This document shows positions 27,201-60,500 of a DNA stretch of 64,000 nt, piece by piece; the first letter of the stretch is position 1, and the number at the start of each line of letters is the position of its first letter. Position numbers and translations under genes: made by a program. Source of the stretch: a virus. The stretch lies in IMG/VR virus record IMGVR_UViG_3300027899_000001, positions 186,001 through 250,000 of that record; one strand, given 5' to 3'. Below the pieces are notes generated by a model. The model saw only the letters and a program-made list of their open reading frames with translations. It did no database searches and was not told the origin of the DNA.

Positions 27201-27297
27201 ATATTAAAGTGGACGCATTAGTTATAAATCTAAATATAGGCATTCCGGGATGCCTATATTGAGATACTATTCCATGAGTGAGTATAGGGTTATTCAT
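12289..27297 (-). CDS. Giant PKD-like/leucine-rich-repeat adhesin (5002 aa)
   Basis: One uninterrupted frame of 5002 codons. It consists of 12 modules. Each starts with a PKD-like domain of about 75 residues (core SSGxLNWDLGDxS, then HTYTSxGNKTVxVYxGTTSG). Leucine-rich repeats of 23 residues follow, in pairs of 46 (NPNLTxILNPVSSQ... then CNLTGTLDVSGLTGLGG). Each module except the last ends in a linker with LDLFTVDDIFAKLDTWYSSN and a conserved ending before the next PKD-like domain. I count about 58 LRR pairs. No signal peptide or membrane segment is visible. PKD and LRR domains are known as surface adhesion modules, so a receptor-binding fibre role is likely. The start lies three bases after the stop of the collagen-like gene; a GGAGA lies 13 bases upstream. 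Confidence 0.85.
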   Translation of the reverse strand: MNNPILTHGIVSQYRHPGMPIFRFITNASTLIFDPAINVTSGILSWNLGDISSNVNANSISHTYTLVGNKTVEVYKGTASGSTGITQIDMGNDNIVGVLDISSLISLTQLTVNENYGINRIINPVSSQIFNLYNANYCNLTGTLDISGLTNLGGNFTAIGNVNLTHILNPISSQVFTQYNVQTCDLTDTLDVSGLTGLSGWFEVSKNPNLTHILNPVSTHPFNAYLAFECNLTDTLDLRGLTELGGVFDVKNNVNLTSIRNPVSSQAFSHYEVDNCNLTGILDVSGLTGLGGNFSADYNLNLTKILNPDSSRSFNTYSAGNCNLTGILDVSGLDGLGGMFWVNYNPHLNTILNPVSSQVFTGYYVNDCDLTGTLDLQGLTNLGGIFYAGNNTNLTTILNPSSTQIIDYYAANDCNLTGTLDVSGLINLTSGFEVYNNPNLSSILLPTTLSGEFNIFNANNCSLNLLTVDGIFSKFDTWYSSNSPNQSLTVDVAGGTNTPPTDCSLNTNIVHLESIFDSAGQIFTYYINCDIVRSQVLRFTTNASTLSFDPAFTVSSGVLNWDLGDGSSYVNSNSFTHTYTSVGNKTVSVYTGTTSGSTGITSINMNGDNLVGLLDISSLINLQSLSVYSNSTLTQIFNPVSSQVFNTYHVELSNITGTLDVSGLTGLGGGFDLSYNPLLTHILNPVSSQAFSSYQVYNCNLTDTLDLRGLTGLGGVFSLSYNPLLTHVLNPVSSEIFHSYYIDECNLTETLDVSGLTGLGGSFSVDVNPNLTSILNPVSTQIFENYSAYSCDLTGTLNVSGLTGLGGSFYVYSNSNLTQILNPDSSQVFTYYWAYECNLSNTLDLTGLTGLGGYFYAYNNPNLTTILLPTINQQIIDFDADNCDLDLFTVDDIFAKLDTYYSSNSPNQNLTVNVANGTNSPPTDCSMNANIAHLESIFAESEFTFIYFINCDIVGSKVLQFTTNASILAFDPSIAVSSGILNWDLGDGSILNANNFVHTYTSVGNKTVNVYSGTTSGSTGITTIQMYNDNLVGILDISSLSNLGGAFSVYGNSLLTQIVNPVSSQAFTTYHAYDCSLTGTLDVSGLTGLGGQFLVYNNSKLTKILNPVSSQIFTNYYAYNCSLNGVLDISGLTNFGGQLIVYSNPNLTNVLNPTTSRTFSVYQVNDCNLTGTLDLKGLTGLGGVFTVDNNPNLTSILNPVSSQNFIAYSVQNCSLNGTLDVSGLTGLGGSFATSAQSNLTQILNPVSSRLFTLYTVRDCNLTGTLDLRGLTGLGGQFLARYNPNLTQILNPNSTQVFTNYYVNNCSLNGTLDVSGLINLGGVFRAGNNTNLSRILLPTINRQFTSFDVSVCALDQFTVDNIFTKFNTYYSSNTPTGNLTINTIGGTNAAPTNCWDNTDIVNLRSIFTSAGRTLNIYINASCGSVPVGAKVLQFTTNASTLAFDPTFTTSSGTLNWNLGDGSTLNSNNFTHTYTSVGNKTVNVYSGTTSGSTGITEIDINTDNLVGTLDISSLINLNYFDVDSNPNLTSILNPISSQIFNTYYAYNCDLTDTLDLRGLTGLGGDFEVTTNPNLTSILNPISSQVFVAYYANNCNLIGTLDISSLTGLGGEFIVNNNPNLTHILNPISSQIFTFYYAYDCSLNGTLDLRGLTGLGGDFNVDGNQNLIQILNPDSSQVFTYYTAESCNLTGTLDVSGLTGLGGRMYINNNLNLTTILLPTINQEFIHFRANNCSLNLFTVDDIFAKLDTWYSSNTPTQDLTINTAGGTNAAPTDCSMNANIVHLESIFTGAGQTFTYYINSDCTPPVKILEFTTNASTDAFDPTFTTSSGILNWDLGDGSILNSNSFEHTYTSAGNKTVNVYAGTTSGNTSIIQIDMNNDNLTGTLDISSLSNLGGIFNIYSNPYLTQIINPVSSQIFTQYAVSGCNLTDILDISGLTGLGGNFIVDDNANLTSILNPVSSEIFTTYSVSNCNLIGTLDLTGLTGLGGGFQCDNNYNLTEILNPNSSQVFSYYQIIMSGLTNTLDLRGLTGLGNYVDIAYNFSLPEILNPVSSQVFNYYHVNDNNLTGILDVSGLTGLGGSFWASGNYGLTQILNPVSSQVFSQYEAYNCDLTGTLDLSGLSGLGGYFSLANNPNLNVIIFPTVFSQPFDQFNVQDCSINTATADSIFAKLDAYYLSNPPTGPLNVNMSGTKNAGPTDCSLNANIVSLEAQFLLYGQTFTYAINCTSPAQEPFLTFTTYAYSGPLSANFTGPSGTLNWDLGDASNNVNANSINHTYVNFGNKTVKVYPGTTSGAIDVSGVFIDTDGVINTLDISSFVNLSYFNVNFNSNLTHVLNPVSSTIFTNYMAQGCNLTDTLDVSGLTGLGGYFQIDNNYNLTKILNPNSSQVFTLYWLDNNNLTGTLDLRGLTGLGGDFRVDSNYNLTEILNPVSSQVFIEYIVSYCNLTGTLDLSGLTGLGGWVNINDNPNLTTVLFPTVNREYVVLLANNCALDLFTVDDIFAKMDTWYSSNTPTQNLTIDVAGGTNSPPTDCSMNANIVHLTSVFNSAGHTFTYYINCDLIFEFITNSSTHTFQPSLSTYSGILNWDLGDASNNVNANTFSHTYASTGDKTVKVYNGTTSGYSAISAVDFYENNIVGTLNLSNLIGINDYIQVAYCPSLNQIINPITSNVISSGYYCPWNNLTGTLDISGLTGLAFQFSVTRNPNLTHILNPDSSQPFSYYLANYCNLTDTLDLRGLTGLGGDLEITVNPLLTQILNPVSSQVFTEYDVNDNNLTGILDVSGLTGLSNRIRVENNVNLTTILLPTINNEFTFFNANNCALDLFTVDDIFAKFDTYYSSNPPTQNLEINVADGTNTSPTDCELNTNIVHLTSLFNSAGRTFIYYINCDAGEILRFVTNAYGTVYYPFDVYFNFTVSSGTLHWDLGDSNTRDSNNFDYTYSLAGDKTVILSKGTTNGSADITAMQLYDYSGIVGTLDISCLTNLTDFYTANDPSLNKIINPVSSQAYTRYRAVNCDLTGTLDVSGLTGLGGTFEVGNNSNLTRVLNPVSSQIFTTYDVYNSNITGTLDVSGLTGLGGYFDADSNPLLTHILNPNSSQVFDQGYWVYSCDLTDTLDLTGLTGLGSGFDADDNPNLTHILNPNSSQVFDQGYWAQLCNLTGTLDLTGLTGLGGDFEVHTNPNLTQILNPTSSQIFTNYYAYNCDLTGILDVSGLTGLGGDFEVYNNLHLTSVLNPNSSQVFTMYDVGNCNLTDTLDLRGLTRLGGDIYLNYNSNLTSVLNPTSSEIVTSYLIDNCNITGILDVSGFINLSDYLLFSDNINLNTLLLPTLNMPFTYINGNNCALDLFTVDDIFTKLDTWFTSNSPSNGLYVNLAGGTNAAPTDCSMNANIVHLESIFTGAGQTFTYYINCNPEPSVGFLRFTTNAPPAYEIALQFGVWSGILNSNLGDASNNVNSNNFTHTYTNSGNKTINVYPGTTDGSSGLRVIVLWFDYLTGILDVSSLNNLWQLRVDGNPSLTKIINPVSSTVFTSYSASGCDLTETLDVSGLTGLGGYFDVGSNANLTHIFNPVSSQIFTTYYAYDCNLTETLDVSGLTGLGTDFWVYNNPNLTQILNPDSSQVFTTYYAQNCNLTGTLDLRGLTGLAGNFYINNNPNLTQILNPVSSQIFTNYYAYNCSLNGILDVSGLTGLGGGFWVSGNSNLNTILNPNSSEIFTYYGATGCNITDTLDLRGLTGLGGNFYVYNNPNLTHILNPDSSQVFTGYQAYNCNLTGTLDVSGLTRLSGTFFINNNPSLNQILNPISSEIFTHYVVYNCDLTGILDLTGLTGLGGTFQAYNNPLLTQIFYPVSSQIFENFSVYQCNLTGTLDVSGLTELGGQFAASQNPNLTTILLPTINQEFINFYADNCALDLFTVDDIFAKMDAYYSINPPTQNLEINVAGGTNSPPTDCWNNINIDNLQSIFTVAGRTFTCYINCAEPSVGFLQFRTNASTNAFSTNFSVYGTLNWDLGDTSTSVDANVINHIYANPGNKTINVWPGTANGPEDVWQVTVGTDSIIGVLDISCLINLQYVNIVTNHDLTKIINPTSSQIFSTYYANNNNLTGTLNVSGLTGLGGYFDVNNNPNLTQIINPDSSQAFDYYAAYDCSLNGTLDVLGLTGLGGQFRVSGNPNLTQILNPVSSQVFVAYYAYDCNLTGTLDVSGLTGLGEQFLVYTNPNLTQILNPVSSQVFVNYWATNCNLTGTLNLTGLTGLGGQFLVSGNPNLTQILNPDSSQVFTNYYAYNCSLNGTLDVSNLINLSEQFHVYDNPNLTTILLPTINQQFSVFDVHNCALDLFTIDDIFAKLDAWYTLNGPTQSLEIHAERGTNSPPTAEWSNTNIVNLQTIFSNWGQGLLIHINLAPMVEFTTNAYGTLYHTYDIWFAYTTSSGTVETDMGDTTYMNFNNFEYIYSLPGDKHVRLLPGTTAGSTDVTGFDLNENAGVVGTLDLSNLTNLNQFRAAINPSLNTIINPVSSQSFASNFYYAYQSDLIGTLDVSGLTGLGGYFDVDTNPNLTSILNPISSEVFNWYYAHDCSLNGTLDLTGLTGLGGEFDVDSNSNLTKILNPVSSQVFTGYYAYDCNLTGTLDVSGLTNLSGYFEVYNNPNLTSILLPTINQHFNTFDVHNCSLNTSTMDDIFAKLNTWFSLNTPVGELYIDVSCGRGSGPTDCMYNSDIVNLQSIFTNASWLLTIIVNCESVAPIGFLSFTTEASTNAFDPNVTVSSGTLSWDLGDLTTQNANSFSHSYSSPGNKIVNVYNGTTSGPASIRYLYMDADNLVGVLDVSTLSILEDFEVYDNPKLTQIICASTNALFDYFNAWSCNLTDTLDLRPIKRLGFDFEVQNNPNLTEILFHSSAQDMEYFNAWDCNLTGTLDISGLTNINNYMNVHNNPNLTRILFPAFAGRFDTIDASGCGLDLFTVDDVLTKLDTWFTAHNPASYNSLTLNLSKGTNSIPTDSSMNTHLTSLVSIFNTAGATFKYYINE
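12450..27270 (-). repeat. 12-fold PKD-LRR super-repeat with 138-bp sub-repeats
   Basis: The PKD-like core (DNA 'cctaaatcccaattaag' and variants) recurs near 27150, 25605, 24338, 22921, 21795, 20522, 19545, 18539, 16986, 15309, 14041 and 13045. The distances differ in steps of about 140 bp, matching the 46-residue LRR-pair unit. LRR pairs per module, from N- to C-terminus, are 7, 5, 6, 4, 5, 3, 3, 7, 8, 5, 3 and 2 by my count of the translation. Confidence 0.85.
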
Positions 27298-33973: not shown

Positions 33974-35332
33974 ATGCAAGCACACTATATCAGCGAAAAA
34001 TTTACAGAAGAATCAACAGATCCAATTAGTGATCTTGGTATAGGTATAATAAATGTGAGGAAAGAGTTTAAAACAGAAGAAGAATTTCTTCCTTATCTTT
34101 ATAAAATTTCACCAATGATAATAAATATCAAAGATCCTATAGAAATAATATACGAAGGTGATAAAGACTGGATTTTAAAGCCAAGATTCTTTAATAAAAT
34201 AGAAAAATATTGTGCAAAATATATTACAATAAATGGTGAAAGAGGTGATTTTGGATTTAATCCAGGGAATTTTAAAAGATATATCTTAAAGAAAGCAAGA
34301 AAAAAAATACATGAAGCATTTCGAGAAGAATCTGATCCTACAGAAGATTTAGGAATTGGAAAAGTTCGTTGGTTTAACAAAGTAAAAGATTTTTATATAA
34401 ATCAAGTTTTTGGATATGAAGAAGATGCGGAGCTTTTCATGGAAATCGCTGATGATGAATTAGAAGAAATGTTTCAAAATCAAATAGAGCCCGATGATGC
34501 AGCAGACGAATGTTATAGTGATATTAATTTATATAACAAATGGCGTGAAATGTCGGGTATTGATGAATCTTTAAACGAAAAATTTACAGATGAATCCGAT
34601 CCTATACGTGATATGGGAATAGGCGGAGTTTTTCGTAAAAAAGATTTTCAAACTAAAGAAGAAATATTAGATTTTCTTCTATTATATATACCTAGTATTT
34701 TTAAAACAGAAGAAATTCCAGATGATATTGTATATCCTAAAGAAGCGCATCAAGGCGCATTTAAATATAAATATTGGTACGCTTTAACAGATTATTGTAA
34801 AAAATATATTACTTTAAGAAAAAAAGAAGTAATATTTGATAATCTTCTTTGTATAGATTTATGGATAAAGTTAATAAAAATGGGATATCCTAAAGTAGAA
34901 CAAACTGAAAAAAATCATGATTATGGGCGAGAAATAATAATAGAATCGTTAAACGAAAAGTTTAAAGAACAATCAGATCCTATACATGATATGGGTATTG
35001 GGTGGGATGAAAATACTATTGAAGGGTATCTTAAACTACACGGATATTCTAAAATAAATATTGATCGTAGAAAACGAGGACATATACCCGCTATTAACGT
35101 AGAATTTTCTAAAAATGATGTGAATTTTGAATTTGAGATTGTGTTAGACGATGATTGGGCGTCTTGGAGACATCAATTAGATTGGTGGGATGACAATGAT
35201 AAAAATTATGATTGTCAAACAGAGAGATGGACATTGGGAGATAAAAACGGAGAAATAGACGACGAGAAATTTATAGTGTCTATATTAAAACGAAGATTAA
35301 ATAAATATAATAAACAACATGCGCAAACCTAA
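33974..35332 (+). CDS. Tagged multi-module protein with four internal tags (452 aa)
   Basis: Four copies of the tag are present: ISEKFTEESTDPISDLGIG (about residues 6-24), IHEAFREESDPTEDLGIG (about 111-128), LNEKFTDESDPIRDMGIG (about 199-216) and LNEKFKEQSDPIHDMGIG (about 325-342). Modules 1 and 3 are paralogous to each other and to proteins encoded at 50377 and 51180 (shared pattern: F-x-T/N, a helical yL...IP.i.KT, IPDDI, a KYI segment, KMGY). Module 2 is acidic. Module 4 is a different Trp/Asp-rich sequence. Every tag contains [IL]-x-E, the T4 prohead protease consensus, so processing into four peptides is possible (inference). It overlaps the next gene by 14 bases. Biochemical function is unknown. 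Confidence 0.75.
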   Translation: MQAHYISEKFTEESTDPISDLGIGIINVRKEFKTEEEFLPYLYKISPMIINIKDPIEIIYEGDKDWILKPRFFNKIEKYCAKYITINGERGDFGFNPGNFKRYILKKARKKIHEAFREESDPTEDLGIGKVRWFNKVKDFYINQVFGYEEDAELFMEIADDELEEMFQNQIEPDDAADECYSDINLYNKWREMSGIDESLNEKFTDESDPIRDMGIGGVFRKKDFQTKEEILDFLLLYIPSIFKTEEIPDDIVYPKEAHQGAFKYKYWYALTDYCKKYITLRKKEVIFDNLLCIDLWIKLIKMGYPKVEQTEKNHDYGREIIIESLNEKFKEQSDPIHDMGIGWDENTIEGYLKLHGYSKINIDRRKRGHIPAINVEFSKNDVNFEFEIVLDDDWASWRHQLDWWDDNDKNYDCQTERWTLGDKNGEIDDEKFIVSILKRRLNKYNKQHAQT

Positions 35333-37497: not shown

Positions 37498-38871
37498 ATG
37501 AATATGAAATTAATTAGAGAAAATATAATAAACGAAAAATTTAGAGAAGAATCTGATCCTATTAAAGATATGGGTATAGGAATGAAACGTATATATTATT
37601 CTTTTGCACCTCAAGAAACTCAATATATTTTATTACTTCGTTGTGAAAAAATGTCTGAAAAATTAGAAGATTTTTTCATACGTCATTCTTTTTTTTGGTA
37701 TAATAAGAATAATGCATGGGAATCATCTTGGGCATATCCAAAAGATAGATGTATAAGAGAAGCTTCAAAAATATTTAAACAAATAGAAAAACTTAAAACT
37801 TACAAAGTTGTATTAGACAGAGACGAAGAAGTCTTTTTTACAGTTCCTGGCTATAATGTAAATGAAGGTGTAGCAGATAAATATACGAGACAAGATCCAC
37901 ATTTATCTCGTGTTCCTGTAGAACATGAAGATTTTGAAAGAGGATATGAGGAAAAAGAAGCTGAAGGAAAACAAAAAGAAGATAGAGATAAAATTGTATA
38001 TAAGGTTAGTAATCATGTATACGTAATGAAAAATCCCACTTCTTTAGAAAAATTCTCTCCCGATTCACGTGCAATTGTAAATAAAAATGGAGATTTATAT
38101 GTTACTACATATAATGTTATGACTCATGATGAAATGGCTCGAAGATTGGAAAAATTAGGAGAATTAAAATATCAAGATAAATGGTGGCAAAAATCTCCAA
38201 CAGAATTTATCACTATTCAAAGAATGTATAAAGAAAATAAATTTGTATTAGGAGAATCTAATGAAGCTATTATGTATTATGTAGATGCTAGTAGAAGAGC
38301 GATATATAATATGCCTGATACTGTTGAATCTGCTAAAAAAGCATTTATACCTTTTCTTGAAAAAGCGAAAAAAGTAAATCCTCAATATCAATTTATTGAT
38401 AAATCTTTAGATGATTTACTTTATTATGCTCCACATCCTGTTAAAGAAAGTTTAATTAATGAGCCTAAATCAATTACACAAGCAGAAAAACAGTTAGCAA
38501 AAGATAGAGAAATGCCCGGACTTAATAAAAGAATATTAAAAACTATTAAAGATAGAGGTGGTGATATCGTCAAAATTTATGCTGTTAATGCAGATTATGT
38601 AAGAGATAAAAAACCAGGATTAAATTTCGATGGATTCACAGATGGAGGACATCATTATGTAACAAGCTTACCCGGATATAAAAAATGGATACCGGAAAAT
38701 GAAATTTGGATAGATGATGTATTTATGATGAAACCGAATGATTTACGAGCAATACTACAACATGAATTTACAGAAAGAAATCTAATGAAGTATAAACATT
38801 GGTCTTATGATAAGGCTCACGATTATGCAAATAAAAAAGAATCAGAATACAGAGAAAGAGTTAAAAAATAA
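37498..38871 (+). CDS. Tagged protein with putative HExxE metallopeptidase-like C-terminus (457 aa)
   Basis: The N-terminus (MNMKLIRENIINEKFREESD and following) carries the shared tag; the second ATG at 37504 would give the more typical MKLIREN start. The middle (about 110-300) is charged and of unknown fold. Residues about 360-405 include DGGHHYVTSLPGYKKW. Near the C-terminus H422-E423-x-x-E426 is followed by H441 in YDKAHDYANKKE; HExxE plus a downstream AH is reminiscent of zinc-binding phage domains, but activity is unproven. The gene ends one base into a terminator hairpin, closing the first part of the wedge region. The tag suggests virion packaging (inference). Confidence 0.6.
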   Translation: MNMKLIRENIINEKFREESDPIKDMGIGMKRIYYSFAPQETQYILLLRCEKMSEKLEDFFIRHSFFWYNKNNAWESSWAYPKDRCIREASKIFKQIEKLKTYKVVLDRDEEVFFTVPGYNVNEGVADKYTRQDPHLSRVPVEHEDFERGYEEKEAEGKQKEDRDKIVYKVSNHVYVMKNPTSLEKFSPDSRAIVNKNGDLYVTTYNVMTHDEMARRLEKLGELKYQDKWWQKSPTEFITIQRMYKENKFVLGESNEAIMYYVDASRRAIYNMPDTVESAKKAFIPFLEKAKKVNPQYQFIDKSLDDLLYYAPHPVKESLINEPKSITQAEKQLAKDREMPGLNKRILKTIKDRGGDIVKIYAVNADYVRDKKPGLNFDGFTDGGHHYVTSLPGYKKWIPENEIWIDDVFMMKPNDLRAILQHEFTERNLMKYKHWSYDKAHDYANKKESEYRERVKK

Positions 38872-49436: not shown

Positions 49437-50060
49437 TTAAATATATTTATGAAGAGTTGCAGATCTGTTATCAATTATCTTTGAGCCCTGAATTAAAATT
49501 TTATTATCATTAATATATTCACGAATATATTTATCTGACATACCAGTGTCAAAGCATATAAAATCCCCCCATATTTCTTGAGGCATATATTCTAAAGACG
49601 TCAATTCTTTATTATGAGATATATTAAAATTATCTTTTATTATTCTTGGACAATTTTTTAAAGATAATAGCTTATTTTCAAAAAGCATTATAGATAATCC
49701 TATTTCTTTTGGTATACCTTCTAATGACGTAAGTTGATTTTTTCCAATATACAAATTAAAATCTACTTTTTTTGGAAATCCTTTAAAATTTTTTAATCCG
49801 CTTTCATACATTGATATTGTGCCGTGAATCTCATTAAATTTAATAAATTCAGGAAATTCTCCATTTGGTAAAGGTATGGCATGAAAATTTATACCTCTTG
49901 CATTAATAGTAAAATCATCATTTATAGTAGGCTCATATACATTTTTCTCATATTTTTCTAGCCATTCTTTAATTAACTTGCGAGATCCTATACCCATATC
50001 TCTTATAGGATCAGAATCTTCTCTAAATTTCTCATTTATGTGTTCTCTTACTATTTTCAT
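49437..50060 (-). CDS. Tagged leucine-rich-repeat-like protein (207 aa)
   Basis: The N-terminus contains INEKFREDSDPIRDMGIG (residues 8-25) behind MKIVREH. After a helical link, residues about 85-185 form irregular LRR-type repeats: KNQLTSLEGIPKEI, ENKLLSLKNCPRII and HNKELTSLEYMPQEI, i.e. N-x-L-xSL-x-x-x-P. Such repeats bind proteins. It is the last of five overlapping minus-strand genes and overlaps the preceding gene by four bases (ATGA). The LRR type differs from that of the giant adhesin, so it is not a fragment of it. Proposed cargo with a protein target; the target is unknown. Confidence 0.7.
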   Translation of the reverse strand: MKIVREHINEKFREDSDPIRDMGIGSRKLIKEWLEKYEKNVYEPTINDDFTINARGINFHAIPLPNGEFPEFIKFNEIHGTISMYESGLKNFKGFPKKVDFNLYIGKNQLTSLEGIPKEIGLSIMLFENKLLSLKNCPRIIKDNFNISHNKELTSLEYMPQEIWGDFICFDTGMSDKYIREYINDNKILIQGSKIIDNRSATLHKYI

Positions 50061-50386
50061 TGTATTAAATATCTTTCATTCATATCTACACGATAAACAA
50101 CATAACTATTATCATAAAAATTTACCCTTTCACCGCCATTATAACTTTCAAAACTATCTATAATACAAGAACGTTTTTTACCTCCAATAAATACACCTGT
50201 TATTTTTTTACCTTTTAAAGAATTTAAAAAATCCAACCACGAAGATAACCAAAAATTATTACCGCTTACATAATATTTAGAACGTTCTTCTTCAAAATTA
50301 ATACCTCCTATTCCCAGATCATGTATAGGATCTGATTCTTCTTTGAATAATTCATTTATATGTTCTCTTACTATCACTAATTCCAA
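50057..50386 (-). CDS. Tagged small protein of unknown function (109 aa)
   Basis: MELVIVREHINELFKEESDP and following is the tag with two extra residues before it, so the start codon may have shifted. The body (about residues 30-109) is beta-rich: KKITGVFIGGKKRSCIIDSF, then ERVNFYDNSYVVYRVDM, which resembles a small beta-barrel; no family recognised. It overlaps its upstream neighbour by ten bases and its downstream neighbour by four. INE gives a possible cleavage site after residue 12. Confidence 0.65.
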   Translation of the reverse strand: MELVIVREHINELFKEESDPIHDLGIGGINFEEERSKYYVSGNNFWLSSWLDFLNSLKGKKITGVFIGGKKRSCIIDSFESYNGGERVNFYDNSYVVYRVDMNERYLIQ

Positions 50387-51183
50387 TTTATTTTTATAGT
50401 ATATTTAAATCTACGATATCCATTTGGATAACTTTTTATAAATTCTTTAGAATGTTCTATACTTTTTATTGAATTAAAAACATTTAAATATTCAGTTTTT
50501 GGTGCGAACGCCCAACGAGATGAAAAGAGGCCAGAAGATATTTTATAACGTTGTTCTGATAAATACTCCATCATTCCAGATTCTTTTAACCAATAATCTA
50601 CATTATTTTTAAACGCAACATTATATGGAGGATATTCCACAGCAATTTGAAGATTACTTCCATCTATCTCATATTTATATAAATTTATAAAATGGTGGTC
50701 TGTCATTAAATCTGTAAACTTCTGCAGTGAATCTTCAATAGCTTTTCGTATTCCTATTCCTAAATCATATACTGGGTCAGATTCTTCTGAGAATTTTTCA
50801 TTTAGATTGCGATTCCATGTCTTATACCCCATTTTTTCTAATTTATTGAAAAGTTTTGTTATTACAAATGATGTAGTTTGGTCAAATCCTTTCATAGAAG
50901 GTATTTTAATATATTTACTAACATATTTACATAAATCTTCATATTTATCGTTATCTAAATGGTCTTGTGCTGTAAATTCTTTAAAAGACTTTGTATATAT
51001 TTTTAGAATATTATCTGGAATTTTATTAGTTTTATAAATAATAGGAATTACTTTTAATAAAAAATCTGCAGCGCCTTCTAACGTATCAAACGATCTTTCT
51101 ACATAAATACCAATTCCTAAATCACGAATAGGATCTGATTCTTCTATAAATTTCTCATTTATATGTTCTCTTACTATTTTCAT
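50377..51183 (-). CDS. Tagged two-module protein of unknown function (268 aa)
   Basis: Two tags are present: INEKFIEESDPIRDLGIG (residues 8-25) and LNEKFSEESDPVYDLGIG (about 127-144). Module 1 belongs to the IPDDI-type family (FLLKVIPIIYKTNKIPDNIL, then KYVSKYIKI, KLEKMGYK), also seen at 33974 (modules 1 and 3) and 51180. Module 2 is a different domain of about 120 residues. The layout looks like two neighbouring tagged genes fused in frame, or a precursor cut at the internal LNE. Four-base overlap with the upstream gene. Confidence 0.7.
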   Translation of the reverse strand: MKIVREHINEKFIEESDPIRDLGIGIYVERSFDTLEGAADFLLKVIPIIYKTNKIPDNILKIYTKSFKEFTAQDHLDNDKYEDLCKYVSKYIKIPSMKGFDQTTSFVITKLFNKLEKMGYKTWNRNLNEKFSEESDPVYDLGIGIRKAIEDSLQKFTDLMTDHHFINLYKYEIDGSNLQIAVEYPPYNVAFKNNVDYWLKESGMMEYLSEQRYKISSGLFSSRWAFAPKTEYLNVFNSIKSIEHSKEFIKSYPNGYRRFKYTIKINWN

Positions 51184-51524
51184 CTTTCAAATCCCATCTT
51201 TTTAAATCTCTCCATTAATAGCTCTGGCCAATAATATACTCTACATGCCTGCTCTCCTGTAGAAATTCCTTCAAACGAAATATATTCTGTTAAAAATTTT
51301 TGTATAATTAAAAAATATGTATGATTTATAGCTCCACCATATCTTAAAATATCATCAGGAATTTTTGATGTTTTTAAAAGTTGCGGAATAATAGTTATTA
51401 AATAATCTAAAAATTTGTCTACATTTACAAAATCTCGATGCGCATATAATCCAATATTCATATCTCTTATGGGATCCGATTCTTCTTTGAATGCTTCATA
51501 TATATGTTCTCTAACTAATTTCAT
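51180..51524 (-). CDS. Tagged protein of the IPDDI-type family (114 aa)
   Basis: The tag IYEAFKEESDPIRDMNIG is at residues 8-25. The body has the same pattern as modules in the neighbouring gene and at 33974: HRDFVNVDKFLDYLITIIPQ, LLKTSKIPDDILRYG, FLTEYISFEG and FKKMGFER. This single-module form defines the family as about 90 residues after the tag. Mostly helical, no catalytic motif evident. Its ATG overlaps the stop of the repaired frame of the upstream gene (ATGA), and its own stop overlaps the next ATG by four bases. Confidence 0.7.
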   Translation of the reverse strand: MKLVREHIYEAFKEESDPIRDMNIGLYAHRDFVNVDKFLDYLITIIPQLLKTSKIPDDILRYGGAINHTYFLIIQKFLTEYISFEGISTGEQACRVYYWPELLMERFKKMGFER

Positions 51525-51990
51525 GCCGAATGTTCTCCCATTATGATAGTAAAATATTCAATTACACTGGGTTTTATTTTAAAAATTACTTCTGAACAAT
51601 TAAATTCAGTAGGAGGTGCACTAGACGAATTTGATTTAATATCTACCTCGTCTTCCATAAAATACAAAATGCCAGCATGTTTTAAAAGATTTTTAGAATA
51701 CTCAATTTTATTTAAAGGTTTTCCATCAAGAGTTTTAAATAAATTAGAATATGTAAGAACTCTTAATTGTTCGTTGGCTAAATCTATAATTAAACCTCTT
51801 ATATTTTTTTATCACTTATATGCCAATTATTATTCATAGTAGATAGATATTCAAATTTGAAAGTGGTATCATATTTTATTATATCTTCAGGAGATTTTTC
51901 TATATTTTTTACAATGCCAATGCCTAAATCATGAACAGGATCTGATTCTTCTCTGAATTTCTCGTTAATATGTTCTCGTACTATTTTCAT
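51521..51990 (-). pseudogene. Tagged gene split by a frameshift in an A7 run (156 codons if repaired)
   Basis: The tag frame starts at 51990 (MKIVREHINEKFREESDPVH and following) and stops at 51799 after WHISDKKI. In the -1 frame there is no stop from 51808 down to 51521, and the sequence (RGLIIDLANEQLRVLTYSNL and following, ending IIMGEHSA) is a plausible protein. The frames meet at a T7 run on the plus strand (51804-51810, A7 in the mRNA); A8 would restore one 156-residue protein. The restored stop (51523-51521) overlaps the next ATG by four bases, like the other cassette genes. It may be a mutation, an assembly error, or a programmed slip on the A-run. Confidence 0.75.
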
Positions 51991-52705: not shown

Positions 52706-53554
52706 ATGAATCATCAAAAAATTTATGAAGCTATAATAACTAAAGCAAAACTAGAAAATAGAAAAAAACTTATAAAAAATAATTTAAATTATATATATTA
52801 TGAAAATCATCATATAATTCCTCGATGCTTAGACGGAACAAATGATGAATATAATTTAGTTTTATTAACTGCTAAAGAACACTATATATGTCATAAATTA
52901 TTAACTTATATTTATAAAGGAAACAGAAAAATTGCGTGTGCATTTTATCGAATGGCCTTTAATAAAAAAGAAAAATACAAAATTTCATCAAGAGACTATG
53001 CATATGCAAGAGAACTAATTAGTAATACTCCTGTATCAGAAGAAACAAGAAAAAAAATAAGTAAAAAAAGCAAAGAACATAAAACATTTTTAGGAAAAAA
53101 ACATACAGAAGAATCTAAGAAAAAAATAGGATTAGCACAAAAAAATAAAATTGTTTCAGCGAAAACTAAACAAAAACAAAGAGAAGCTAATTTAGGAGAA
53201 AAAAATCCGATGTATAAAAAATGCAGTCATTTTAAAGGAACCCATTTATCTGAAGAAAAAAAGAACCACTTAAGGAATTTATATTTAGGAAAAACCCTTG
53301 AAGAATTATATGGAAAAGAACGTGCAAAAGAAATAAAACAAAAAAATAGTAAAAATAATAAAGGAAAAAATTTAGGAAAAATAAAATCAAAACAAGAGCG
53401 AAAAATTATATCAGATTCTGTTAAAGAATATTATAAGTCTTCTAAAGCTAAAATAAAAACTAGTGAAACTACAAAATTAGCAATGCAAAGACCAGAGGTT
53501 AAAGAGAAACAAAAATTAGCATGGATAAAACGAAAAGAAAACAAACAATTATAA
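52706..53554 (+). CDS. HNH homing endonuclease with NUMOD3 repeats (282 aa)
   Basis: H35-H36-I-I-P-R with N50 and H59/H63 (EYNLVLLTAKEHYICHKLL) form the HNH nuclease core. From about residue 110, NUMOD3-type repeats (SEETRKKISKKSKEHKTFLG, KKHTEESKKKIGLAQ) and a long Lys-rich C-terminus provide DNA binding. Free-standing HNH enzymes of this kind are common between phage genes. It lies between the heat-shock gene and the hub region, and its last six bases overlap the convergent 1150-aa gene. The repeats resemble those of the GIY-YIG enzyme at 39582, although the nuclease domains differ. Confidence 0.9.
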   Translation: MNHQKIYEAIITKAKLENRKKLIKNNLNYIYYENHHIIPRCLDGTNDEYNLVLLTAKEHYICHKLLTYIYKGNRKIACAFYRMAFNKKEKYKISSRDYAYARELISNTPVSEETRKKISKKSKEHKTFLGKKHTEESKKKIGLAQKNKIVSAKTKQKQREANLGEKNPMYKKCSHFKGTHLSEEKKNHLRNLYLGKTLEELYGKERAKEIKQKNSKNNKGKNLGKIKSKQERKIISDSVKEYYKSSKAKIKTSETTKLAMQRPEVKEKQKLAWIKRKENKQL

Positions 53555-56500
53555 AGATGGTAAAGGCCACTGACCTGGAAAACCATATGTTTTCGCACCA
53601 GTTGGCACAAAATCTTTATATAAAAATTTTAACCAAGCAATATTAGTAGGCCTAAGTAATTGATAACTTGGAAAAGGATCGTTTGTAGTAATCAATGACA
53701 TCGATGCTATTAGAGTATTTTTATATGCTTTATAATCAAGAACAGTGCCTTTCAATTTAGTTTCATAGTTAGAAGATAAAAGATCTGCGTTTTTTAGTTT
53801 AAATTTATCTGTTATATTATTTAATACATTATAATTTATATTATCATCCAAATCACCTGCAATATTTATTACTGGTTTAGGATTTTTTGCAGTTAATCCA
53901 AAATTTGCTGTGTCTGGGCTTATCGCTATAGGTAATGCAGCAATACTTTTATTAACATTATCAGCCATAGAATTTAAAGTATTCATTTGATTGTTAATAG
54001 ATTTTTCTGTTGAATCTAAAGAACTTGTAATACCTTTTACTGATTTGCCTCCTGAATATGCATCTCGTAAAATAGCATATTCAGTTTGATATTTCCATAA
54101 TTTTCCACTTTCGGTTGCTATTGCTTCATAATATATTGCAACGCCTTCAACCCAATTTCCATACGCTTTCGCATATTCTAAAGACGTTGTTGTATATTTT
54201 GTAGGTTTATTAGCTTTAAGATTTTTAAGTTCACTTTTTAATCTTTTAACAGTTTCTTTAGATTTATCTACATTTTCTTTAGCTTTATCCATAAGGGGTT
54301 TTATGCTAATTTTTTTCAAATTTGCTATCTGATCCGATATTTCTTTTTTGAGTGCTTGTATTTCATTTTTTAATGCAATCGTAGGATCTCCAAACGGCGT
54401 TACAAAATTTGTATTAAGATTTACAAATAAACTCCAAGGAAATAAATAAATTCCGCATATAGTTAATCCCAATAATATAACTCCATAAGACGTACTTATG
54501 GGTTTTATTGGAACATACACAACTGGAAAAGGAATGGGGGTTGGAAATATCCAGCCTGTTGACCAACCCATTGCAGGATTTGTTACACTTGCTAATGTAG
54601 CATATGAACAATATTTTAACCAATATTGAATATCACCATATCCATATTTTGATTTAGGATTCATATAAGGATCAATTTCTTCTGATTCACAGGTTCTTGG
54701 TTCTGCAATTGAATATAATCTTGCTTGTTTTCCGTTATATTCTGTAATAGAATATGTAGTAAACATGGAAATACTATCAATAAGTTTTTGCAATTCTTCT
54801 ATTTCTACAGGCAATTTTAAATATTCTTTCCATAGAGCTTCAACAAACGTAAAAAGATAATTTCCTTCTTTAACAGTTTCTGTTCGTTGTGTAGTTTCTT
54901 TTTTAATTAAATTATATTTTTTAACTATCGTATCAGCATTTAAATATAATTCGAATAAAAACATAACTCTATTAACAGCAATTAATTTATCATTTCCTTC
55001 CAATTTTCTATTATCATTTGCCAATCCCATTAACCAAGATTTAAGATCAGATAATTTTTTATTTTGTGAATAAACAGCCATCGCTTTTTTAAACCAATCA
55101 CCCAATGATAATCCTTTTTCAATTTCTTTTATTCCTTCATTTATTTTTTGTGCAAGTTTATCTTTATTGTATCCATCAAGAACATATCTTTTTCTTATAA
55201 ATTCATTTATTTTATCTCGTATTTCTATTTCTAATTTAGTTGGATTTTCTATACCATTAAATACTGGACCTAAATTTAATGAATAATATTCAAATAAATC
55301 ATATTCATTTGATTTAGCTTTTGTTAACTTAGCAGCATTTTGTGCCATATCTCTTAAGAGATTTAAATGTTTATAAAATTTTTCGTCTTCTGTTTCTATT
55401 TGTTTTTTTATTTCATTTAATGTTTCATTTTTTGCATGTTTTTCAACATTATCTTGTCCAGCTATTTGTTTAATTTTATTATCGTGTTCTTCATTAATTA
55501 AATTATATGTTAATAATAATCCTGCATATTGTTTGTTAATTCCTGTATATTGATCATGAGTAGATGCATCATCTACAATAGAAATTGACAACATTATAGG
55601 ATATAGTGTTTTAATATAATAATATTTTAAAAATACTTTTGCACTGTTTAAAGTTGCATATTTTTCATTCAAAGAATTAATTAATGATGTTAAGTAATCT
55701 TCAGGAGGCTCCGATATATCTCTAAGAACTATTTTATTGGTAGTTATTTCATCTATGTATCCTGGAATAGGAGAAAAAATAGATTGTGTTCCTAAATTAG
55801 CAATTTTAGTCTTTTGATCTACAAAAGAATCTTTAGGAAGAAATGAAATTAATGCATCAGTTTTTCTATTATTTTGTATAATAGCCATAGTAACTAAATC
55901 CTCATTAACTGTAGCTTCAACTGTAGTTTCTTCGTTTTGAATAATTTCACATGATGTATTTTTTAATCTTTCTTCCAATGGTCTGTGTGGCACGATGACA
56001 TCATCGATGACGACTGGACAATTAAAAGTCGATGTAAAAGGAATCTTATTAATAGAAACATTAAATGGCTCAAAATCACTCTGACATATAGCATCTGTAG
56101 CTATCACTTTTAAAGTTTGAGAAGAGTGTTTATGTAATTTTTTTCTATTAATTAAATATAATGAAGTTATTACTGTAATTGCTATTAAAATATCATCAAT
56201 ATTTTTAAAAGAATTCATTAAATCTTCAAATTGTTTTTTAGTTGAAGATAATCTTTTATCTGTTGAATCTTTTATTTCTTCGTATTCACTTTTTATTAAT
56301 GCATATGTATTACGAATTAATTTTTGAATATATTTGGTTCTATATTTTGAGGGATGAACAGTTTTAGTTAATAAATCTTTAGTCATATCAACATTATGTT
56401 GAAGTAAATATTTATATGTTTGTAGTTTTTCTTGAAATTGATTTGTTTGTAGTTTCAATGCTTCTTTCTCAGCATTTATTCCTTCTTTAATATTTATGTC

Positions 56501-57001
56501 TTTAATAAAATTGTATGTTAAATATGCTCCAGCAGCAATAACTAATGCTGAATTAATTTGTAATTTTAATTGTTGCACTTTATTTTTATTAATTTCTTTT
56601 TCTATATTATTTAAACTGCTTATCGTATTTAAGATTTCTGGCGCAGTTAAATTATCATTTAGAATAGGAATATTATCTATTGATGCTTCATTATGACATG
56701 CTAATAATATTTGTGATAAATTTGAATTGTCGATTTCTTTAGCTGTAAACTTTAATATTGTTTTTGCTCTTATATCAGTTCTTAAAAATTTTGCAGTATC
56801 TTCTTTACTATATCCACCTTTTAAAATCTTACTAAGTATTAATGCTAAAGCTGCCATGGCAGCTATTTTTAATAAATCTATTTTCTTAGGAATACTCGCA
56901 AATAATTTTTCTAATTCCAAATTAATTTTAAATTTGGCATCAGCTTTAGCCATTTCTGTTTTTTTCTTGACTAATAATTTTGCTTTATTTAATAATCCCA
57001 T
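53549..57001 (-). CDS. Large virion protein with membrane segments and coiled coils (1150 aa)
   Basis: Predicted hydrophobic helices lie near residues 45-60 (LLKIAAMAALALILSKIL), 150-165 (ALVIAAGAYLTYNFI), 270-285 (ILIAITVITSLYLI) and about 805-830 (YGVILLGLTICGIYLFPW). Long charged helical stretches lie between them, with a coiled coil near 845-900. A short FSPIPGYIDEI segment (about 400-420) resembles a small beta domain. The size, helices and membrane segments in the hub region suggest a tape-measure-like or membrane-penetrating injection protein (inference). No lysozyme or peptidase motif was seen. Its first codon overlaps the end of the upstream phosphoesterase gene by one base. Confidence 0.55.
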   Translation of the reverse strand: MGLLNKAKLLVKKKTEMAKADAKFKINLELEKLFASIPKKIDLLKIAAMAALALILSKILKGGYSKEDTAKFLRTDIRAKTILKFTAKEIDNSNLSQILLACHNEASIDNIPILNDNLTAPEILNTISSLNNIEKEINKNKVQQLKLQINSALVIAAGAYLTYNFIKDINIKEGINAEKEALKLQTNQFQEKLQTYKYLLQHNVDMTKDLLTKTVHPSKYRTKYIQKLIRNTYALIKSEYEEIKDSTDKRLSSTKKQFEDLMNSFKNIDDILIAITVITSLYLINRKKLHKHSSQTLKVIATDAICQSDFEPFNVSINKIPFTSTFNCPVVIDDVIVPHRPLEERLKNTSCEIIQNEETTVEATVNEDLVTMAIIQNNRKTDALISFLPKDSFVDQKTKIANLGTQSIFSPIPGYIDEITTNKIVLRDISEPPEDYLTSLINSLNEKYATLNSAKVFLKYYYIKTLYPIMLSISIVDDASTHDQYTGINKQYAGLLLTYNLINEEHDNKIKQIAGQDNVEKHAKNETLNEIKKQIETEDEKFYKHLNLLRDMAQNAAKLTKAKSNEYDLFEYYSLNLGPVFNGIENPTKLEIEIRDKINEFIRKRYVLDGYNKDKLAQKINEGIKEIEKGLSLGDWFKKAMAVYSQNKKLSDLKSWLMGLANDNRKLEGNDKLIAVNRVMFLFELYLNADTIVKKYNLIKKETTQRTETVKEGNYLFTFVEALWKEYLKLPVEIEELQKLIDSISMFTTYSITEYNGKQARLYSIAEPRTCESEEIDPYMNPKSKYGYGDIQYWLKYCSYATLASVTNPAMGWSTGWIFPTPIPFPVVYVPIKPISTSYGVILLGLTICGIYLFPWSLFVNLNTNFVTPFGDPTIALKNEIQALKKEISDQIANLKKISIKPLMDKAKENVDKSKETVKRLKSELKNLKANKPTKYTTTSLEYAKAYGNWVEGVAIYYEAIATESGKLWKYQTEYAILRDAYSGGKSVKGITSSLDSTEKSINNQMNTLNSMADNVNKSIAALPIAISPDTANFGLTAKNPKPVINIAGDLDDNINYNVLNNITDKFKLKNADLLSSNYETKLKGTVLDYKAYKNTLIASMSLITTNDPFPSYQLLRPTNIAWLKFLYKDFVPTGAKTYGFPGQWPLPSL

Positions 57002-57558
57002 TACAATTTAACTTTTATCTCTTGTCTTTGTTTTCCTTTATTATATGTATAAACTACAGTATCAAATTTAACTTTAAAGGGCTTAATTTTTTTTGTGTAT
57101 TTTTTTCCTGTTTTTGGAAGAACATAAGCAAGAGTCATATGAGGATGATAGTCTGGAAAAGATTGAGTATTTGGAAATCTTCTTTCAAGCAAATCATGAT
57201 ACATTTGAAGTTCTTCAGATATAGGAACATCATATTTTACAACATCATAATCATCACATTTAAATATGGAAATTTCTTTAATAGTAGATTCAACAGGTTC
57301 AAAAGTTTTCATAAATTCTTTAACATCATTTGGATCGACTTCATTTAGATGAAGTCCAAATAATAAAGTGCAATGAGGTTTATGTTCTAAACCAAAATCT
57401 TTAAATTCATCATCATAAATATCATCTTTTTCAATAATAGATAAGTGCTCATTCCAGTTTGGAACATCTGCATATAACATAACACAACCATAATCTAATT
57501 TTTTAGATTGCGTTTTTTCTTCTGATAGCCAATTTTTAAAAGTTATAAATTTATGCAT
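57001..57558 (-). CDS. 2H phosphoesterase with tag-like N-terminus (185 aa)
   Basis: Two H-x-T motifs, H62-C-T in PHCTLLFG and H140-M-T in YHPHMTLAYV, about 78 residues apart, are the signature of 2H phosphoesterases (LigT/2'-5' RNA ligase-like; T4 anti-CBASS Acb1 is of this type). These enzymes hydrolyse cyclic or 2',5'/3' phosphodiester bonds. The N-terminus MHKFITFKNWLSEE matches the leader half of the tag, with LSE as a possible cleavage site. It overlaps the metallopeptidase gene upstream by eight bases and lies in the baseplate-hub run. Suggested: virion-delivered enzyme against nucleotide-signal defence or tRNA/RNA ends. The substrate is unknown. Confidence 0.8.
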   Translation of the reverse strand: MHKFITFKNWLSEEKTQSKKLDYGCVMLYADVPNWNEHLSIIEKDDIYDDEFKDFGLEHKPHCTLLFGLHLNEVDPNDVKEFMKTFEPVESTIKEISIFKCDDYDVVKYDVPISEELQMYHDLLERRFPNTQSFPDYHPHMTLAYVLPKTGKKYTKKIKPFKVKFDTVVYTYNKGKQRQEIKVKL

Positions 57559-57955
57559 CTTCCCAGTATTTTTTTAATATTTTTTCATGCTGCTTTTTTC
57601 CTAAATCTGGCAAATCTTCAAACTTTTTAATACCTTGCCGTTTAAATTTTTTAAATTGATATGTATATGCAACTCTTTCTGTATTATTAGTAGGATATTC
57701 TTTACCATCATCTTTAGAACCTTTTTTATATAAAAGATAATGAATTAATTCATGTTTCATCCAATTAAGAGGGTCTTTTTTATAATCATAGTCACTTCTA
57801 ATTCTTACTACATTATCATCAGAATCAAATTCAGTAGGATCATTTTTTCCTTCTGGCCAATCTTCCTTTTTAACTATAACAATAGGTAAATCATAATTAT
57901 CTACTTTAATAAGTCGTGATTCATTTAACCAATTTTTATAACTTTTAAATTTCAT
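57551..57955 (-). CDS. HExxH metallopeptidase-like protein with tag-like N-terminus (134 aa)
   Basis: H68-E69-L-I-H72 in WMKHELIHYLLYKKG is a zinc-metallopeptidase motif; Glu93 in NTERVAYTYQ, 21 residues after the last His, is a good third ligand. I chose the start at 57955 because it gives MKFKSYKNWLNES, matching the leaders of the neighbouring tagged proteins; an ATG seven codons upstream would overlap the previous gene. LNE is a possible prohead-protease site after residue 11. At 134 residues it is about the size of small phage or SprT-like peptidases. It probably acts in the infected cell or on the virion; the substrate is unknown. Confidence 0.7.
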   Translation of the reverse strand: MKFKSYKNWLNESRLIKVDNYDLPIVIVKKEDWPEGKNDPTEFDSDDNVVRIRSDYDYKKDPLNWMKHELIHYLLYKKGSKDDGKEYPTNNTERVAYTYQFKKFKRQGIKKFEDLPDLGKKQHEKILKKYWEDA

Positions 57956-57962
57956 TATATTT

Positions 57963-57973
57963 TTTATTTTATA
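57963..57973 (-). promoter_or_regulatory. TATAAAATAAA, partial late element
   Basis: The minus strand reads TATAAAATAAA seven bases upstream of the ATG at 57955, overlapping the stop codon of the spike gene. It lacks the first TA of the 13-mer and could give the peptidase-phosphoesterase pair a separate late start. Confidence 0.3.
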
Positions 57974-58748
57974 CACTTATAAGAACATTAGTTGATAAAA
58001 TAGTTTGTTTAGTTGCTTCAACAAGCCCTACGTTTACTCCAGGTGTTGCCGGAAATTTTTGATCTAAACTTGCAGCCATTGTTGATAATAACGCAATTAA
58101 AGGTTCTCCTCCAACTGCTGTTTGATATGGGCCTGGACCAATTTTAGTTTTTTGACTTCCATTAACTATAACTTCATCAGCAGTAACTTCTGCTAATGCT
58201 GCTGCAGCTATATGAACTTCATTTTTCGTAGTTACATTAATAACATCACCATCCATTTGAATAATTGAATCATTATTAGGAGTTGATAAAGTTATTAACG
58301 TATCTGGTGTTATTTGAATATATGATTCTTTAAAATAAATTTGAAATCCACTTTTAACTTGAAATATAACAGTAAGTTCTTGTTCAGGATCATATAGAAG
58401 AACATGAGTTCCTTGATAATCATCTTTAATTTTTTTAATAAGTTCAGTGTCAATATTTTGAATAGTTGTATATTCTGGCGCATACATATCACCATTATTA
58501 AATTGAATTCTTACAAATTGGCCAACTTTAGGAACAGAAAGAGATCCAGCGCCATCACCGGCAAATATTGTAGAATTTATAGGAACAGCCCATGGTAAAT
58601 ATTTATCTTCTATTCCATCAAATAAACCCAATACTTTAACTTGACATCTTCCTGAAAATGTAGTATCTTTAGTGTTAACTACAATTCCAATCCAGTCATT
58701 ATCGTGATAATCATGTTGAATAAAATCTATATCAGATGTATATGGCAT
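57969..58748 (-). CDS. Baseplate spike protein, gp5-like OB-fold (259 aa)
   Basis: Residues about 15-100 match the gp5/VgrG OB-fold: DWIGIVVNTKDTTFSGRCQV, KVLGLFDGIEDKYLPWAVPI, then SVPKVGQFVRIQFNNGDMYA. The rest contains beta-strand pairs (IIQMDGDVINVTTKNEVHIA, EVTADEVIVNGSQKTKIGPG) of a small triple-stranded spike. T4 gp5 is 575 aa with a lysozyme domain between these parts; that domain is absent here, so cell-wall cutting must come from another protein. It lies among hub genes, next to the ankyrin gene (one-base gap). Confidence 0.8.
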   Translation of the reverse strand: MPYTSDIDFIQHDYHDNDWIGIVVNTKDTTFSGRCQVKVLGLFDGIEDKYLPWAVPINSTIFAGDGAGSLSVPKVGQFVRIQFNNGDMYAPEYTTIQNIDTELIKKIKDDYQGTHVLLYDPEQELTVIFQVKSGFQIYFKESYIQITPDTLITLSTPNNDSIIQMDGDVINVTTKNEVHIAAAALAEVTADEVIVNGSQKTKIGPGPYQTAVGGEPLIALLSTMAASLDQKFPATPGVNVGLVEATKQTILSTNVLISV

Positions 58749-58749
58749 A

Positions 58750-59451
58750 TTAATGTATTAGTTTATATTTTTGTAATAATTTTATTATTCGTATTCTTCT
58801 ATTTTTTACTTTCCAATAAAGAAGATTACGAGATAAATTAGAATTCACTGTTGCTCCAAGTTTTATAATAAATTCAGCAGTTTTAATTTTTCCATTATAA
58901 CAAGCTGTTGCTAAAGAATTACTTAATACTTCAGGAGTTAATTGTATTCCATTGTCTATTAATAATTGAAGTATATGAACATGATCAGTTTTAGCTGTCA
59001 TATAAAATGCTCTTGAATTTTCTAAGTTTACGTCTGCTCCATGATCTATCATAAATTTAACCATTAAGGAATTACCTTTAGTACAAGCTTGCACAAGAAA
59101 TTTTCCATTAGACATATTTAAATCAACGCCTTCTTCAACTAATATTTTAAGTATTTCTAAATTATTATATACAATTGTGTATCTTAAATAATCACTATCT
59201 TGATAATTACTACGTGTAATAGATTTTTTTGCTTGTCTATATAAATAAGAAACAAATTCAGGTTTATTAGATGATATGCATGCTAATAATTTAGAATGAG
59301 CAGAAGAACTTGCATTTGGATAACTACGGCCGCTTTTTTCAAACCAAGTATTAATAGCGTGTTCCATTCCAATTCCCATATCTTGTATAGGATCGGATTC
59401 TTCTGAAAATTTTTCATTTATCCATTTTCTATATGCTGAAAATTTTGTCAT
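58750..59451 (-). CDS. Tagged ankyrin-repeat protein (233 aa)
   Basis: The tag INEKFSEESDPIQDMGIG (residues 12-29) follows leader MTKFSAYRKW. Residues about 85-215 hold four to five degenerate ankyrin repeats, e.g. NLEILKILVEEGVDLN, NSLMVKFMIDHGADVN, HVHILQLLIDNGIQL and KIKTAEFIIKLGATVN. The C-terminus (RRIRIIKLLQKYKLIH) matches that of the neighbouring gene. Ankyrin proteins bind other proteins; phage examples are uncommon. It lies one base from the spike gene and two bases from its paralogue, within the hub region. Probably a duplicated cargo gene whose product targets host proteins (inference). Confidence 0.8.
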   Translation of the reverse strand: MTKFSAYRKWINEKFSEESDPIQDMGIGMEHAINTWFEKSGRSYPNASSSAHSKLLACISSNKPEFVSYLYRQAKKSITRSNYQDSDYLRYTIVYNNLEILKILVEEGVDLNMSNGKFLVQACTKGNSLMVKFMIDHGADVNLENSRAFYMTAKTDHVHILQLLIDNGIQLTPEVLSNSLATACYNGKIKTAEFIIKLGATVNSNLSRNLLYWKVKNRRIRIIKLLQKYKLIH

Positions 59452-59453
59452 CG

Positions 59454-60500
59454 TTAAAATAATTCATATTTTTTTAATAAGTCATAAACTCTTATTCTTC
59501 TACGTTGTTGAGACCATTTTTTCAATAACATTTTTAAAAGACTATTTACTTTTGCGCCTTTTTCTACTAAAAATTCTATCATTTTCAAATCTCCTCTGTC
59601 ACAAGCACTAGTTAATGCAGCATCTAAAATTTCTTTATCTATATCTATATTATCTAACAGATATTGTATAACATTTTTATGTCCAGCATTAACTGCTACT
59701 AAAAATAAATCTCTATTATATCCAATGCCAGTATTTGCGCCATTGTTAATTAAATATTCTAACATAGGTATATTGTCATATACCGTTGTATTTCTAAGTA
59801 TACAAGGATTTGCATTTACATTTGCTCCTGCTTCAACTAACATTTTAACTATTTCAAAGTTATTATAATTTACTGCTGTTTCTAAATAATCACCATAATT
59901 ATAATTTAAATTAGGAACTTTTGGTATAAGATATTTAACGAATTCTATTTTATTATCTACAATACTTTGTCTTAATCTTGAGCGAATATCATTAAAATAT
60001 AAAGGATATAATTTATCTCTAAAATAATCATCCATTATTCTTTCAATTCCAATACCCATATCATGAACTGGATCTGATTCTTCTTTAAATTTTTCATTTA
60101 CTGACGTATTTGGCGAAATGTTTGTATGATATTTACTATTTAATAATTTAATAACTTGTTCAACCATATCTATTACTTTAATATTTTCCCATTCATGACT
60201 ATATGCGTTTTCAGTATGTTCGAATGCATTTTTAAATGCTATATTATCATTTGCGTTAATTGTCAGTTCTTTTAAAGTAAAATAAAGAAGCATAACACAT
60301 ATAGTTTTTTCAGCATCTGTTTTCTTTTTATCTCGAAAATTTTTATTATAGAACGTTGTTGTACTTATAGGCCCCATTCTTTTTATTTCCTCTTTCCATA
60401 AATTTTGTAAATAAGGACGGCCTATACCCAAATCTTTTATTGGATCAGATTGATCAGAAAACTTTTCATTTAACCATTTTCTATATGCGTAGAATTTCAT
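59454..60500 (-). CDS. Tagged ankyrin-repeat protein with internal second tag (348 aa)
   Basis: The first tag LNEKFSDQSDPIKDLGIG follows leader MKFYAYRKW; a second, VNEKFKEESDPVHDMGIG, lies near residues 136-153. Between them is a module of about 105 residues (CVMLLYFTLKELTINANDN and following). After the second tag, about five ankyrin repeats follow (NFEIVKMLVEAGANVN, NIPMLEYLINNGANTG, HKNVIQYLLDNIDID, DLKMIEFLVEKGAKVN), and the end RRRIRVYDLLKKYELF is paralogous to the 233-aa gene. It looks like a tagged gene fused to a tagged ankyrin gene. Overlaps the preceding structural gene by four bases (ATGA). Confidence 0.8.
   Translation of the reverse strand: MKFYAYRKWLNEKFSDQSDPIKDLGIGRPYLQNLWKEEIKRMGPISTTTFYNKNFRDKKKTDAEKTICVMLLYFTLKELTINANDNIAFKNAFEHTENAYSHEWENIKVIDMVEQVIKLLNSKYHTNISPNTSVNEKFKEESDPVHDMGIGIERIMDDYFRDKLYPLYFNDIRSRLRQSIVDNKIEFVKYLIPKVPNLNYNYGDYLETAVNYNNFEIVKMLVEAGANVNANPCILRNTTVYDNIPMLEYLINNGANTGIGYNRDLFLVAVNAGHKNVIQYLLDNIDIDKEILDAALTSACDRGDLKMIEFLVEKGAKVNSLLKMLLKKWSQQRRRIRVYDLLKKYELF

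Follow-up and report, generated by a model that had tools for sequence, protein, structure and literature searches.

A 2H phosphoesterase with a putative T4-type head-loading leader in a gp23/S77-type phage: a candidate injected enzyme that may heal RNA ends

The gene described here encodes a 2H phosphoesterase that, judging from its sequence and genomic surroundings, may be packaged by means of a leader, trimmed by an S77 protease, injected into the host and used there to heal RNA ends. To this reading as a whole we give slightly less than an even chance, its stronger half being packaging through a T4-type leader, which appears decidedly probable. In the proposed mechanism, the 13-residue N-terminal propeptide would act like a T4 capsid-targeting sequence (CTS) and carry the enzyme into the core of the prohead, the S77-type protease encoded by the phage would remove the leader by a cut after E13, and the mature enzyme would be ejected into the host along with the DNA, where it would then most likely open 2′,3′-cyclic phosphates on cleaved RNA ends, tRNA above all, ahead of phage gene expression. 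The computed support consists of the catalytic motifs, the predicted fold, the detachable leader, the protease and gp23 of the same genome, and the RNA-repair fusions and neighbours of the relatives; from these we infer the packaging, cleavage, ejection, timing and substrate of the enzyme.

The window analysed is a stretch of 64,000 nucleotides, positions 186001–250000 of a virus record of 405,016 bases (G000). The record and most of the relatives are metagenomic and many are fragmentary, so that a gene may seem absent because its part of the genome is lacking. The 2H gene sits among structural genes, and its ORF shares 8 bp with the ORF upstream and 1 bp with the one downstream. The features, in window coordinates, are as follows.

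53549–57001, minus strand: 1150-aa downstream protein with no assigned function; L003 and L004 have large proteins in the corresponding position
57001–57558, minus strand: 2H phosphoesterase gene, 185 aa, ATG start
57133–57141, minus strand: second catalytic motif, H140-M-T142, invariant in 22 relatives
57367–57375, minus strand: first catalytic motif, H62-C-T64, with HxT invariant in 22 relatives
57520–57558, minus strand: leader MHKFITFKNWLSE, residues 1–13, similar to four other N-termini, with a predicted cut after E13
57551–57955, minus strand: upstream small protein overlapping the 2H start, leader MKFKSYKNWLNE (score 44), with a HELIH zincin-like motif; the zincin reading was made by eye and the Pfam matches are weak
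57969–58748, minus strand: baseplate OB-domain protein (Phage_base_V, 36.1 bits; PHROG baseplate)
58750–59451, minus strand: ankyrin protein with leader MTKFSAYRKWINE, by similarity, and SDPI tag
59454–60500, minus strand: ankyrin protein with leader MKFYAYRKWLNE, by similarity, and SDPI tag

Elsewhere in the window, a 5002-aa ORF occupies 12289–27297 on the minus strand.

The sequence-only reading had described the protein as a 2H phosphoesterase carrying H62-x-T and H140-x-T, and both parts of this description hold. The two motifs are present and, together with FPDYHPHMT, are invariant in the alignment of 22 relatives; the protein lies above the cutoffs of Pfam 2_5_RNA_ligase2 (PF13563; 38.1 bits, cutoff 27) and LigT_PEase (24.7 bits, cutoff 23.3), and its predicted fold matches 2H enzyme structures. 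It thus has what defines the superfamily, a 2H fold with two HxT/S motifs. PHROG 755 ('RNA ligase') also matches (E 1.1e-9), and the cutoff of Pfam Acb1 (PF23474) is missed (24.7 bits, cutoff 27). The AlphaFold2 model has a mean pLDDT of 86.7, the leader forming a low-confidence extension with pLDDT below 50 at residues 1–19.

A packaging-type leader, FITFKNWLSE, had been claimed in front of the core, and it is found at residues 4–13. As regex leader scans of the phage's own genome gave only about a threefold excess over chance, similarity scoring was used instead: the 11-mer KFITFKNWLSE was compared by BLOSUM62 score with the remaining ORFs of the genome (467 in all, called by a mechanical procedure). 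Four N-termini score at least 32, those of the zincin-like protein (44), the two ankyrin proteins (36 and 33) and a 634-aa protein (32), compared with 0 of 90,241 internal positions, and this result, together with the PF13563 score, speaks against a chance finding. Three of the four genes adjoin the 2H gene, around the baseplate OB gene. By this measure of similarity, the leader is a detachable N-terminal module common to unrelated proteins of the genome. The 634-aa protein (G000:167659–169563, minus strand, in L038) has the leader MKFSSYISWLNE, an internal SDPI tag and, by eye, a nucleotidyltransferase-like motif, GSFKPMHIGH; a Pfam search of it gave no match.

The same genome has a gene for an S77 prohead protease (61 bits; 57 bits when scanned as a protein), which adjoins that of a gp23 major capsid protein (134 bits). 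In T4, propeptides of 10–19 residues direct internal proteins into the prohead core and are removed proteolytically in head maturation (PMC9026906). The window protein resembles the T4 proteins IPI, IPII, IPIII and Alt, with their CTS propeptide, in having a short N-terminal propeptide of similar form that ends in [hydrophobic]xE; as in the T4 internal-protein system, unrelated cargoes share the leader and the S77 protease and gp23 occur in one genome. It differs in that the cargo is a 2H phosphoesterase and in that packaging is here a prediction from the genome. Since the first 13 residues resemble a removable T4-type head-loading tag, the enzyme probably enters the host together with the DNA; on genomic grounds its placement in the phage head is a well supported candidate. 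The earlier view of the leader as a packaging-type sequence is strengthened by its nature as a shared, detachable module and by the presence of gp23 and an S77 protease in the same phage.

A profile scan yielded at least 311 viral relative loci, of which 80 were kept, and a search of bacterial genomes for relatives found none. The 100% identical locus L002 is a separate IMG/VR record and may belong to the same phage population. Of the 95 loci examined, 66 count as leader-bearing under a permissive rule and 12 as leader-less, 14 are fused as parts of large proteins, and three were unclear to the script, two of which (L068 and L070) have a FKNWLLE leader by eye. The final [hydrophobic]xE lies mostly 5–8 residues ahead of the enzyme core, and homologues without a leader start right at the mature enzyme, reading for example MSEKQTYDYGC where leader forms read LIVE-EKQTYDFGC. 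The leader sequence varies from phage to phage and matches the leaders of neighbouring proteins in several loci. In a test for each locus, which had low resolution, no locus fell below 0.05; the pooled test that replaced it set neighbour N-termini against internal windows, and a score of at least 32 against the leader was reached by 13 of 1196 of the former, spread over 8 of 64 loci, and by 0 of 10,512 of the latter, the Fisher value being a guide only, as the pooled loci are related to one another. Across the relatives, the presence of a leader and that of S77 show no clean split. In L058 (LR745206, 4944–6263), a 2H domain with the leader MKLKKYKQFIKE is followed in the same ORF by what by eye is a DEDD exonuclease-like sequence.

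The record as a whole also contains 73 copies, in about 54 proteins, of the module [leader]-[IV]xE-KFxEESDPIxD[LM]GIG, in the window for example at 33974–35332, 37498–38871, 49437–51990 and 58750–60500. Most copies are N-terminal, behind a CTS-like leader; multi-copy proteins also carry the module at internal positions, where an NE dipeptide usually precedes it. When viral contigs were scanned, 39 stretches with the module turned up in a limited set of contigs. It is conceivable, although we regard it as rather doubtful, that the 2H enzyme is part of a large virion-delivered arsenal of more than 50 proteins with CTS-like leaders (WL[NS]E and VREHINE types), mostly with the KFxEESDPIxDMGIG tag, in which internal tags would be prohead-protease sites in polyproteins and an early kit, for RNA-end healing or alarm-signal cleavage, would enter with the DNA.

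As to the substrate, healing of RNA 2′,3′-cyclic-phosphate ends is favoured on account of the relatives' nucleotidyltransferase fusions and their RNA ligase and HAD phosphatase neighbours, with cyclic-oligonucleotide cleavage as the main rival and a close second. The 2H domain lies behind CCA-adding enzyme domains in L008, L085, L094, L104 and L132 and partly in L112 (Pfam), and the same order is read from open frame and position in L088, L090, L105/L107 and L127. In L101, L119 and L128 it is placed behind an NTP_transf_2 domain (Pfam), with a separate CCA-enzyme match at 3.3 kb (L101) and 3.8 kb (L128). In L014, L022 and the L122/L139 pair (L139 gene scanned), the 2H gene has a Pfam-supported RNA ligase no more than 2.2 kb away, and in L011, L012 and L021 a HAD_SAK_2 gene no more than 0.8 kb away. 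In other contigs RNA-repair genes are far from the 2H gene, and many relatives have no RNA-repair neighbour. The RNA_ligase matches beside the 2H gene in L009 and L130 were dropped as they proved to be DNA ligases, and that in L013, with the same distance and frame length as the others, was taken as a DNA ligase too. Against RNA-end healing, searches of the phage's own genome for RNA_ligase (PF09414), PolyA_pol (PF01743) and RlaP detected none; in its favour, one RNA-repair HAD (HAD_SAK_2) is found at 373 kb and there are 39 tRNA genes. These, one of them with a CTA anticodon, lie with a tmRNA-like gene at about 313–361 kb (L043–L045) and in L033. A TAG stop ends 31 of the genome's 360 ORFs of 100 aa or more.

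Compared with the RNA 2′,3′-cyclic phosphodiesterase LigT/ThpR, the window protein shares the 2H fold and exceeds the Pfam LigT cutoff, but it scores 19.4 of the 65.7 bits set by TIGR02258, the NCBIfam LigT/ThpR equivalog, and only 3 of 22 family members match Pfam LigT. A jumbo-phage survey (PMC7824862) has already suggested that 2H enzymes open cyclic phosphates during RNA repair. For phage 2H domains, both polyvalent and standalone, roles in RNA repair or acting on nucleotide signals have been put forward, with injection predicted for the polyvalent proteins (Iyer et al. 2017, PMC5512222; PMC7824862). The domains in these sources belong to the same superfamily as the window protein, but the portions at hand describe no capsid-targeting leader, and PMC5512222 reports no RNA ligase association, whereas an RNA ligase adjoins the window family's gene in L014, L022 and L122/L139.

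Among the alternatives, the one with most in its favour, although still unlikely, is the anti-signalling role put forward in the sequence-only reading: a packaged anti-CBASS enzyme that, like Acb1, would cleave cyclic di- or trinucleotide signals before the effectors of the host are triggered. Early delivery would suit such a role. Every one of the 22 aligned members has a Pfam Acb1 match with E ≤ 0.01, the best being 5.9e-9, and some relatives exceed the cutoff (e.g. L008, 31.7 bits); hhalign aligned 34 columns around the second motif between the family and T4-type Acb1, and the stretch TxxFxDYxPHxTxxY is common to both. The likeness to T4/FBB1 Acb1 further includes the HxT/HxT tetrad and the DYxPH motif. 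Of the base-contacting residues of Acb1, Y12, W74, F107, E141 and W147 (PMC9117128), the joint alignments keep F107, have Phe in place of W74 in 22 of 22 members, do not consistently align Y12 with the family and give no counterpart of E141 or W147, where the C-terminal alignment is uncertain, so that the residue differences only lower the likelihood of Acb1-like activity. Against this role also stand the score of the window protein itself, which is under the Acb1 cutoff, the lack of a PADLOC match and the fusion partners, which are tRNA and other nucleotidyltransferases; moreover, T4 Acb1 has no leader of the form seen here. An Acb1-like activity is thus possible, but the RNA-repair context makes RNA-end healing the preferred reading.

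The structure prediction and comparison with Acb1 and LigT that had been suggested recovered the 2H fold but did not separate the substrate classes. CPDase, LigT, Acb1, VP3, poxvirus cGAMP PDE and Usb1 match with similar scores, and the fold, being common to all 2H enzymes, is uninformative on substrate and was rejected as a test of it. The best PDB TM-score, 0.62, is that of the Arabidopsis Appr>p CPDase; of the four closest predicted viral structures, three bear the name CPDase, CPDase-like or 2′-5′ RNA ligase (TM 0.65–0.77 of query), and those named Acb1 reach 0.46–0.53 of query. The CPDase, VP3 and Usb1 matches would suit a packaged 2H enzyme acting on NAD-derived Appr>p or 2′-5′ oligonucleotides or in Usb1-like RNA trimming, and PMC5512222 proposes RNase or 2′-5′ oligo(A) roles for phage polyvalent 2H domains; we nevertheless consider such substrates quite improbable, as the fold does not discriminate and the Macro domain search detected none in the phage's own genome and a match in only one of 28 records. 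A link to NAD recycling, raised by macro-like and NAMPT-like ORFs seen by eye near the 2H gene of L011, was rejected, the Macro search being under threshold there. It is likewise improbable, if less so, that the leader of an RNA- or nucleotide-directed 2H enzyme serves another localization or assembly role and that the enzyme acts only after late expression. The leader rule is permissive, the leaders are short, and Molly and LR756508 have no leader despite their S77 matches, but the form and position of the leader, its use by unrelated proteins and the presence of S77 and gp23 in the genome argue for packaging.

A packaged enzyme would give the phage RNA-end healing, or signal cleavage, in the cell before its own genes are expressed, at the stage where host systems that cleave tRNA or raise an alarm begin to act. 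Thanks to the leader, packaging can be tested directly by mass spectrometry, and a common leader of this kind would offer an easy way of picking out candidate injected proteins in huge phages of the gp23/S77 type.
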